NCBI RefSeq assembly: GCF_001886955.1
Contig: NZ_CP016804.1
Span: 62,001 to 126,000, forward strand
DNA from: Halodesulfurarchaeum formicicum
Lineage (GTDB): Archaea > Halobacteriota > Halobacteria > Halobacteriales > Halobacteriaceae
Length of the DNA stretch: 64,000 nucleotides
Direction: 5' to 3'
The notes below the pieces were generated by a model. It had not been told where the DNA came from, searched no databases, and saw only the letters and a list, made by a program, of their open reading frames with translations. The position numbers were made by a program, and so were the translations under genes. Shown one piece after another: positions 39,077 to 40,497 of the stretch. Positions within the stretch are counted from its first letter, which is position 1, and each line of letters begins with the position of its first letter.

Positions 39077-39484
39077 TCACCGATACGTTTCGTGAGTAAC
39101 TCCCGGTATTTTCCCGAAGTGATCGTCGCCAGCGAGGACTGGCTCGTCCCGCTCCACCGCTGTGGCAGCGATCACTGCATCTCCCTTGCCGATTCCTGGT
39201 CCTTCCCCCTGGTTGGTGGCGGCCATTCGCTCTCCGAGAAGGCGGCCAGCGCGCCGCGAGATGCTTGGCGTCTGATCAACCAACGGATAGGATTCGAGGA
39301 TCGCTTCGACTCGTTGCCGTTCCTCGTTTGTATTCGCTACCTTCCCGACACCGATGTAAAGTTCCAGGACGGTCATCGTCGGGATCACCAGCGGGACGCT
39401 TTCGGCTTCGAGCGTGCGCGCCTTCTCGACAGCGGCCGCTTCGTCGTCGATGATATCGAGGATGAAGCTGGTATCGACGATCAT
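39077..39484 (-). CDS. vapC: VapC-type PIN-domain toxin
   Basis: A 135-residue PIN-domain protein. The acidic residues that bind Mg are D4 (MIVDTSFILD), E41 (TVLELYIG), D102 (KGDAVIAATA) and D120 (LAGDDHFGKI), all in the expected spots, so it should be an active RNase. It overlaps vapB by 4 bases (ATGA) as toxin-antitoxin pairs often do. VapC toxins cut specific tRNAs or rRNA. Lying within 1 kb of tRNA-Pro and its repeat array, it marks an accessory island. Confidence 0.92.
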   Translation of the reverse strand: MIVDTSFILDIIDDEAAAVEKARTLEAESVPLVIPTMTVLELYIGVGKVANTNEERQRVEAILESYPLVDQTPSISRRAGRLLGERMAATNQGEGPGIGKGDAVIAATAVERDEPVLAGDDHFGKIPGVTHETYR

Positions 39485-39711
39485 TCGAACCGGTCTGTGA
39501 TGTTTCGAACCTCGTCGCGGTCTTCCTGGTCGGCGGCCTCGACGGCGTCGCGCATTTCGTTCACCTCCTCCGTGTCGAAGATGCCACGGAGATCTCGAAG
39601 CGATCGACCACCGATTAGGCGTTCGACGGCGTCACTGAACGACTCATCGGCGCGTTTGTTTGCCTTGATGTGTTCGTACACGTCATCGGCAAGGCGGATC
39701 TGGTGTGACAT
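39481..39711 (-). CDS. vapB: VapB-type antitoxin
   Basis: A 76-residue protein of the VapB/CopG-like kind: MSHQIRLADDVYEHIKANKRADESFSDAVERLIGG forms a DNA-binding strand-helix-helix, with an acidic tail (DTEEVNEMRDAVEAADQEDRDEVRN) that would block the VapC active site. It is first in the pair and would repress its own operon together with VapC. Confidence 0.88.
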   Translation of the reverse strand: MSHQIRLADDVYEHIKANKRADESFSDAVERLIGGRSLRDLRGIFDTEEVNEMRDAVEAADQEDRDEVRNITDRFE

Positions 39712-39887
39712 CTCTTTGTTGACAGCGTTGACGCCAAGGAGTAATCAAGGTTTGGACGAGATATCAGTCTCAAAGCCTGCTACTGTTTCACTCGTGGTCT
39801 TTCCTCAACACGGGCGTTGGAAGAGGTCCGTTGCGAGGGATTTCAACAGCGCCTTCTCGCCAACGGATCAAATTTTACTCCCAGTTA

Positions 39888-40021
39888 GCATCCGCCGAGC
39901 GAAGCGAGGCGGTTCACTCGTCGCGAACGGAGTGAGCGACGAGAACGTTTTGGTGCAGATTTTACAAGGAGCGGTGCGCCAACGGCGCACCCGACGCAGT
40001 AAAAGGTGCAGTGGGACCGCC
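39888..40021. repeat. direct repeat A, copy 1
   Basis: It starts GCATCCGCCGAGCGAAGCG and ends in TGGGACCGCC, which is the complement of the tRNA-Pro 3' end. Copy 2 lies at 40306-40434 and runs into tRNA-Pro itself. The copies differ by point changes and small indels. Inside each is a GGTGCGC...GCGCACC hairpin. Confidence 0.85.
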
Positions 40022-40083
40022 GTCGTTCCGCTTCGCTCCACGACGAGGCCCCTGTTTCTCCTCACTGCGTTCGTCGAAACGGG
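40011..40083. repeat. direct repeat B, copy 1
   Basis: Hairpin TGGGACCGCCGTCGT ... ACGACGAGGCCCC (40012-40026 / 40040-40052), followed by the module TCTCCTCACTGCGTTCGTCG. Copy 2 is at 40225-40297. Confidence 0.85.
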
Positions 40084-40161
40084 GGCCGCCCGGATTTGAA
40101 CCAGCGCAAACCTCGCTCGTCCCTCGCTCGGTTTCCTGGGTTCAAATCCGGGATGGTCCCA
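40081..40161. repeat. palindrome containing two opposed copies of the tRNA-Pro 3' end
   Basis: The 17 bases 40086-40102 (CCGCCCGGATTTGAACC) are identical to tRNA-Pro bases 40430-40446. Their inverted copy is at 40139-40155, with a perfect 14-base stem (40089-40102 / 40139-40152), and it continues to GGTCCCA, the tRNA acceptor end. The 36-base loop is itself self-complementary (CGAGCGAGGGACGAGCGAG on the minus strand). Confidence 0.85.
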
Positions 40162-40224
40162 CCACGACCGCGAATCCACGACTTCGGACACGCTACGCGG
40201 TCCTCGTCGGTGGCTGTCCGAAAA

Positions 40225-40297
40225 GTGGGACCGCCGTCGTTTCGCTTCGCTCCACGACGTGGTCCCATTTCTCCTCACTTTGTTCGTCGAAAAGTGG
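40225..40297. repeat. direct repeat B, copy 2
   Basis: Hairpin TGGGACCGCCGTCGT / ACGACGTGGTCCCA (40226-40240 / 40254-40267), then the module TCTCCTCACTTTGTTCGTCG bounded by CCATTT and AAAGTGG. It differs from copy 1 at a few positions. Confidence 0.85.
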
Positions 40298-40305
40298 GTG
40301 GAGTT

Positions 40306-40434
40306 GCATCCGCCGAGCGAAGCGAGGCGGTTCACTCGGAGCGAACGCAGTGAGCGACGAGCTTTTTGGTGGAGATTTTTCGAGGAGTGGTGCGCGAAGC
40401 GCACCCGACGATGAAAAAGGTCCATGGGACCGCC
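40306..40434. repeat. direct repeat A, copy 2, running into tRNA-Pro
   Basis: Second copy of the 130-base unit; its last 10 bases are the 3' end of tRNA-Pro. This suggests the unit was copied from, or inserted at, the tRNA 3' flank. Confidence 0.85.
40413..40419 (-). terminator. T-run terminator of tRNA-Pro
   Basis: Five T residues on the minus strand, 7 bases after the tRNA 3' end and before a GGTGCGCTTCGCGCACC-type hairpin. Confidence 0.5.
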
Positions 40435-40497
40435 CGGATTTGAACCGGGGTCACGAGCACCCAAAGCTCGAAGGATACCAAGCTACCCTACGGTCCC
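40425..40497 (-). tRNA. tRNA-Pro (anticodon TGG)
   Basis: A 73-base cloverleaf on the minus strand. Acceptor GGGACCG pairs with CGGTCCC, discriminator A; anticodon arm CGAGC-TTTGGGT-GCTCG gives TGG; T arm CCCGG-TTCAAAT-CCGGG. No CCA is encoded and no intron is seen. Its 3' end is copied in the neighbouring repeat array. Confidence 0.97.

Follow-up and report, generated by a model that had tools for sequence, protein, structure and literature searches.

Non-coding arrays built from tRNA 3' ends lie downstream of tRNA genes across the Halobacteriales

Genes for tRNA are a classic landing site of mobile DNA, for reasons that are still debated. The closest precedent for tandem units that carry tRNA ends is provided by the rttR (rtT) repeats of the E. 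coli tyrT/tyrV locus, in which every downstream unit contains a copy of the adjacent tRNA's end. In E. coli K-12, for example, three repeats of the final 19 nt of tRNA-Tyr are found behind tyrV at a spacing of 178 bp, with no inverted copy (best match 12/22). Haloarchaeal genomes also contain short elements termed MITEs, PATEs and SMRs, which are described as targeting other mobile elements and for which the portion of the source drawn on here reports no tRNA-specific target and no tRNA copies (PMC3119063). A description of the tRNA-tail arrays reported below was not found in the open-access literature, though subscription journals mostly lie outside it and an earlier description is possible.

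The tRNA-Pro(UGG) gene of Halodesulfurarchaeum formicicum lies in a window of 64,000 nucleotides, the whole stretch of DNA analysed (positions 62001-126000 of the single-contig, 2,085,946-bp host genome, here G000). As the gene is on the minus strand, the array of hairpins and direct repeats beside it is 3' of the tRNA (Table 1). The window contains exactly two copies of the 17-mer CCGCCCGGATTTGAACC, one inside tRNA-Pro (40430-40446) and one at 40086-40102. Its inverted T-arm partner (GGTTCAAATCC) is at 40139-40149, and the perfect 14-bp arms span 40089-40102 and 40139-40152. Further copies of the tRNA-Pro acceptor end (TGGGACCGCC) are found at 40012-40021 and 40226-40235 and inverted GGTCCCA at 40155-40161 and 40261-40267, while long (39888-40021 versus 40302-40434) and shorter (40010-40085 versus 40224-40298) direct repeats share 86% and 88% identity, respectively. 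The initial annotation of this locus had described the 17-base copy with its inverted partner, two further hairpins seeded by the acceptor end and the paired direct repeats, all of which are present. On the minus strand, the hairpin at 40082-40161 is predicted to fold at -43.7 kcal/mol as RNA (z -5.6 versus shuffles) and at -23.8 as DNA (z -4.7), the acceptor-end hairpins reach z -4.0 (40224-40298) and z -2.9 (40010-40085) as RNA, and the whole 610-nt region has a fold z of -5.7.

Table 1 Features of the tRNA-Pro array, with positions in the window.
Feature	Position	Strand	Remarks
tRNA-Pro(UGG)	40425-40497	minus	ARAGORN; Rfam RF00005, 56.4 bits
T segment of tRNA-Pro (last ~22 nt)	40425-40446	minus	source of array copies
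Type-C element, tRNA-proximal copy, GGACCTTTTTCATC-hairpin-CTCGAAAAATCTCCACCAAAAAG...	40306-40424	minus	direct repeat, 86% identity
Acceptor-end-only hairpin, GGCGGTCCCA at 40226-40235, inverted partner 40261-40267	40224-40298	minus	repeat of 40010-40085
Hairpin A of full unit, TTTTCGGACAGCC...GTGTCCGAAGTCGTGG	40162-40223	minus	limits set by inspection, tRNA-sense reading
T', inverted copy of tRNA-Pro 3' end, TGGGACCATCCCGGATTTGAACC in tRNA sense	40139-40161	minus	
Hairpin B cassette	40103-40138	minus	with both T-arms, the 58-bp cassette 40092-40149
T, direct copy of tRNA-Pro 3' end, GGTTCAAATCCGGGCGGCCCC	40082-40102	minus	20/21 identical to tRNA
Second acceptor-end hairpin, GGCGGTCCCA at 40012-40021	40010-40085	minus	88% repeat of 40224-40298
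Type-C element, distal copy, array end	39888-40009	minus	pairs with 40306-40424

The 130-base repeats represent a second, longer element (type C), which was found with arrays at Pro, Phe, Leu, Gly and Val tRNAs and whose relatives adjoin other tRNAs both in G000 and in other genomes. Beside type-C elements at tRNA-Phe (L044) and tRNA-Leu(CAA) (L051), longer copies of the tRNA 3' half that include the anticodon region accompany the 22-nt copies (for example, GACTGAAGATCGAACTGTCCCCG behind tRNA-Phe). As had been noted initially, no integrase lies near the tRNA-Pro array: its units measure ~70-150 bp, only spurious ORFs overlap it and the nearest PF00589 matches are elsewhere in the genome. The genome has one Y1 transposase. 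One long spurious ORF reads through 39868-40464 (198 aa, with GSNPGG/GFEP-like peptides), and the same is seen at related loci. A PIN-domain (PF01850) toxin-like gene and a VapB antitoxin (PF02697), both on the minus strand at 39077-39711, directly adjoin the array. VapC-type PIN toxins often cut tRNAs, and this neighbourhood may or may not be accidental.

Read in the tRNA sense, a full unit has the order T - hairpin A - T' - hairpin B - T, where T comprises tRNA positions 52 to 73 (T-loop to 3' end) with a few flanking bases, the arms of hairpin A continue the tRNA flank and T' repeats the end of the local tRNA in inverted, degenerate form. T' follows unusual T-arms, such as those of His (GAGAATTGAACC), Pro-CGG (GGGAATTTGAATC) and Gly-CCC (GGAATTGAGCC), and the agreement of its acceptor part is better with the local tRNA (4.31) than with permuted tRNAs (3.71; highest value in 300 permutations, 3.96), a clear but modest difference. 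The B hairpins are common to different tRNAs, genera and families and fall into classes whose internal loops are fixed and whose inner stems vary, of the forms AGGGA...GACCGT, CCTGGAAG...CTTCCTCC, CCTATCAG...CTGATTCC, CACGGCAG...CTGGCATCG and CACGCGAG...CTCGCCATCG; apical parts such as CGCGCGCAGCGAAGCGAGCACG recur in several of them. Among 34 distinct sequences of one B class, the inner stem covaries (166 of 170 cells paired; column shuffles gave a mean of 136 and a maximum of 146), two GA dinucleotides are invariant in all 34 and the T'/T arms mostly covary (CG/TA). A k-turn reading of the tandem GA is ruled out, as there is no 3-nt bulge. The 58-bp Pro cassette (40092-40149) is 100% identical to a cassette behind tRNA-Ser(UGA) (G000:705881-705938), with the identity ending exactly at both T-arms.

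The tRNA-Pro array is one case of a wider pattern, with the same anatomy lying 3' of about half of the tRNA genes in G000 and the two relatives in which copies were counted; a feature peculiar to tRNA-Pro is ruled out by the many tRNAs that carry arrays. When 1-2 kb was read per tRNA, T-arm motif copies were seen behind most G000 tRNAs, in tRNA orientation and typically 70-250 bp apart. An own copy was then counted where at least 18 of a tRNA's final 22 nt were matched within the 800 bp downstream, and the counts were compared with those after random reassignment of tRNA ends (2000 trials for G000). Own copies were found for 24 of 47 predicted tRNAs in G000 (42 downstream copies, all direct, and 1 upstream; permuted mean 3.6, maximum 18), 19 of 46 in a species of the same genus, G002 (27 copies; permuted mean 2.6, maximum 11), and 19 of 43 in G028, from another family (26 copies; permuted mean 2.2, maximum 10), where the permutation figures overstate independence because the sequences are phylogenetically related and the tRNA fractions are slightly conservative because some counted ARAGORN 'tRNAs' are array units (for example, 'Ser-CGA' at G000:690749-690842). 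ARAGORN also misses some intron-bearing tRNAs. When all retrieved loci are taken together, the own tRNA type is the best match for 217 of 226 T copies, and two of the three clear exceptions are a Met array behind the preceding Asn gene. Movement of T together with units between tRNA types was rejected as the usual route, with one convincing case (L219) in the 226 copies. In G028, a dense one-strand cluster of at least 15 tRNA genes (C1 2635124-2637763; L327), unlike the scattered tRNA genes elsewhere, is possibly viral- or plasmid-derived.

Pieces of the tRNA-Pro region recur across the order, as judged by a search against 59 genomes, with copies behind other tRNAs. A palindrome pattern on the T-arm (GGNTTNGAACC-gap-GGTTCNAANCC) matched 8 sites in G000 and none when reversed. 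Of 81 Halobacteriales genomes, 74 contained T'-B-T palindromes, compared with 0 of 312 genomes that represent the phylum's other orders; the reversed control gave 0, and the patterns detect units with near-consensus T-arms only. One B class was also scanned over 84,980 prokaryote species genomes and matched at least 120 loci; 79 of the 80 loci listed by title were named haloarchaea and the other was an unclassified 'Euryarchaeota' MAG. The possibility that the same sequence occurs far from tRNAs, which would have spoken against a link to the tRNA end, was not borne out by this genome-wide search: 116 of 125 among the matches listed are located downstream of a tRNA on the same strand (at a median of 47 bp; 32 tRNA types), and among these listed matches the T copy is identical to the adjoining tRNA at 22/22 positions in 77 and agrees at no fewer than 19/22 in 101. 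Six of the nine other matches listed fall at contig or locus edges, and two of the remaining three (L187, L225) are preceded by a tRNA-Arg-like end. Similarly, a tRNA stands beside the unit in all of 20 further loci from three families. Chance similarity to tRNA ends is ruled out by the permuted tRNA ends, the reversed-pattern controls (0 matches) and the fold z-scores. Viral contigs were also considered as carriers and rejected: 27 matched a loose form of the palindrome, of which only L242 (tRNA-Glu with a B unit) looks haloarchaeal, the other matches being tRNA clusters, chance or an unrelated bacterial palindrome. Seven viral contigs (L248, L252, L253, L256, L257, L264 and L266; GC 0.58-0.65, bacterial-looking) carry near-perfect palindromes with tRNA-3'-end arms (GGTTCAAATCCATGCCCCGCTA) and no tRNA gene predicted beside them, apparently an independent occurrence of inverted tRNA ends.

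Alignment of orthologous tRNA tails between the congeners G000 and G002 revealed whole-unit differences, mostly at the tRNA-proximal end, where the downstream flank begins at the tRNA end in one congener and at an inner T copy in the other. Additional units are present in G002 at Glu(CUC) (+101 bp, where there is a 23-bp direct repeat) and Met (+93), and in G000 at Arg(CCU) (+96), Ser(UGA) (+374) and Val(GAC) (+118). At Ile the distal part is conserved and the first units differ, while at Leu(UAA) the difference is internal rather than proximal. Tandem duplication is visible at Met and Ser, and the new Glu(CUC) unit resembles the unit at Glu(UUC). The T-arm and acceptor end of tRNA-Arg(UCU) differ between the congeners (G000:C1 2054983-2055088, L076, versus L093); the G000 tRNA end has changed (GGTTCAAATCCCGTCGTGCCCG) and the G000 array copies keep the G002 tRNA end (GGTTCGAATCCCACCGTGCCCG), such that the arrays record former tRNA ends. 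In arrays with at least two copies, the first copy is closer to the tRNA sequence than the second in 29 and the reverse holds in 6, distal copies being more diverged. The tRNA-Pro array is one member of an order-wide family of non-coding tRNA-tail arrays, for which the anatomy, the specificity for the own tRNA, the range across the order, the polymorphism of units, the sharing of cassettes and the decay away from the tRNA are shown.

These tRNAs are also used by integrases. In G002, tRNA-Arg(UCG) and its array are adjacent, but in G000 a ~55-kb island (C1 1166485-1221425; L062, L063) lies between the tRNA (1166485) and the array (1221366). The island carries a tyrosine recombinase (PF00589, PF02899) at its array end (L063:4188-5303) and a weaker integrase-like ORF (51-1337 of L063). 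Together with the common use of tRNA genes by archaeal integrases (PMC8371274), this island argues for the arrays being scars of ordinary tRNA-targeted integrases, with att duplicates left by islands that integrated serially and were then deleted. However, the duplicated core of the island is CCTGCAACGCCCA, only 13 bp of acceptor strand and not the T-loop-to-end segment, indicating that integrases work here with a different, shorter core, and such scars would leave T', the conserved A and B hairpins and the use of nearly every tRNA type unexplained; plain integrase scars are therefore disfavoured and very unlikely to be the answer. The initial annotation, which had weighed repeated att-site recombination against a palindromic element that captures tRNA ends, is supported in its latter part, which extends far beyond tRNA-Pro, while plain repeated att recombination becomes less likely because almost all tRNA types are used, the T copy follows the local tRNA, an inverted local copy is also present and the units lack an integrase. 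The arrays could instead act as a selected RNA, in which the tRNA primary transcript would enter the array and the hairpins and T/T' pairing would control 3' processing, decoy tRNA enzymes or yield stable small RNAs. All T copies are in tRNA sense, the folds are strong and covary, T' is kept complementary to the local T, and the GA-RC-NNN-GY-GA (GA-GNA-GA) motif lies mostly on the tRNA-sense strand (173 versus 42 on the other strand within 500 bp 3' of tRNAs; 13 and 11 upstream). However, about half of the tRNAs have no array, presence varies between congeners at the same tRNA, and GNRA tetraloops are usual in stable RNA, whereas the loops here favour GNA triloops (121 of the 173 apical triloops; loop length peak at 3). 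At gathering thresholds, Rfam 15 matches were confined to tRNA and an unrelated ribosomal leader, and at E<=1 the window likewise gave no array RNA family, so that a known RNA family is rejected. A selected RNA role appears unlikely. GNA (and GNNA) loops on GC stems form extraordinarily stable DNA mini-hairpins (PMC4686876), and the GNA loops hint at a single-stranded DNA stage, although this falls short of proof and a transcript would account for the strand bias just as well.

The reading we favour, and to which we would give an even chance, is that the units are non-autonomous hairpin elements made of DNA, which use a presumed enzyme to insert at the 3' ends of tRNA genes and duplicate the T-loop-to-end segment. 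Such small elements would be mobilised, or spread by recombination, as hairpin-forming DNA, possibly through the single-stranded stage suggested by the GNA loops and tandem G.A pairs, with the enzyme supplied in trans. Insertion at the tRNA 3' end would duplicate a ~22-bp T segment, keeping the tRNA gene intact and shifting the former end outward, and later tandem duplication and conversion between arrays would homogenise them. Against this, no enzyme is linked to the units, the hairpins, covariation and sense-strand bias would also be expected of transcribed RNA, several unit additions could be tandem duplications (Met, Ser) or isoacceptor conversion (Glu(CUC) from a Glu(UUC)-like unit), and the Leu(UAA) difference does not lie next to the tRNA. 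The weak point is T', since its match to the local tRNA means that simple insertion with target duplication falls short as an explanation; some copying from the local tRNA, or correction towards it, is required, which template switching or conversion may supply, within the insertion mechanism or in place of it. In an enzyme-free form, forks stalled at tRNA genes would switch template onto the nascent T segment to give T' and T copies, and unequal exchange or conversion bounded by the 11-bp T-arm consensus would spread the cassettes. This would account for the agreement of T and T' with the local tRNA and for shared cassettes ending at T-arms, and is consistent with the tandem duplication at Met and Ser and with the repeat-mediated deletion at short repeats described for Haloquadratum (PMC3119063). 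However, every cell replicates past its tRNA genes and the arrays are restricted to one order, while an undirected process would not predict B classes with conserved internal loops (GA/GA in 34/34) across families, and we find the enzyme-free route rather doubtful. A bolder form of the insertion reading, which we put forward tentatively, is a new class of mobile DNA in which ~60-bp hairpin cassettes would travel in single-stranded form, use the conserved T-arm of whichever tRNA gene they meet for priming or recombination and, during insertion, copy the tRNA end on both sides, such that every tRNA gene would anchor its own growing array with fossil former 3' ends.

With arrays made from each tRNA's own end throughout an archaeal order, and insertion polymorphism between close relatives, sequence comparison is by itself enough to study landing, growth order and local copying. 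In haloarchaeal genomes the arrays also give rise to spurious predictions of tRNAs and proteins and, if transcribed, would constitute a large unstudied set of structured RNA tails.

The arrays fit no known RNA or mobile DNA family that we found. As in rtT, the tRNA's own 3' end is repeated in downstream tandem units; however, the rttR units are long, include a small gene (tpr) and an sRNA, occur at a single locus and do not extend across many tRNA types, and Rfam gave no rtT match to the haloarchaeal arrays. The attL and attR sites of tRNA-targeted tyrosine integrases (such as SNJ2-type and SSV-type) likewise arise by duplication of a tRNA 3' segment without disruption of the tRNA gene, and the landing site is the same, as seen for the island at tRNA-Arg(UCG). 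In contrast, tyrosine-integrase elements are long, carry their own integrase and a tRNA-specific core, and lack an inverted copy or hairpin cassettes, and their att sites do not form ~100-bp tandem units at dozens of tRNA types. Set against att scars, the arrays share the direct duplication of the tRNA 3' segment, but have no integrase in or beside the unit and no fixed tRNA specificity, one B class standing beside 32 tRNA types among the matches listed. By analogy only, integron cassette and CRISPR arrays show ordered growth at a fixed anchor with the repeat regenerated at each addition, and integrons also use folded palindromic sites, though the arms resemble attC GTT/AAC boxes only superficially; unlike either, the tRNA-tail arrays have no integrase or Cas1 nearby and no cassette genes or spacers, and their repeats vary with the tRNA. 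The MITEs, PATEs and SMRs of haloarchaea (PMC3119063) are similarly short (~100 bp), hairpin-rich, transposase-free, dispersed and non-coding, whereas the terminal repeats of tRNA-tail units are the local tRNA sequence itself.
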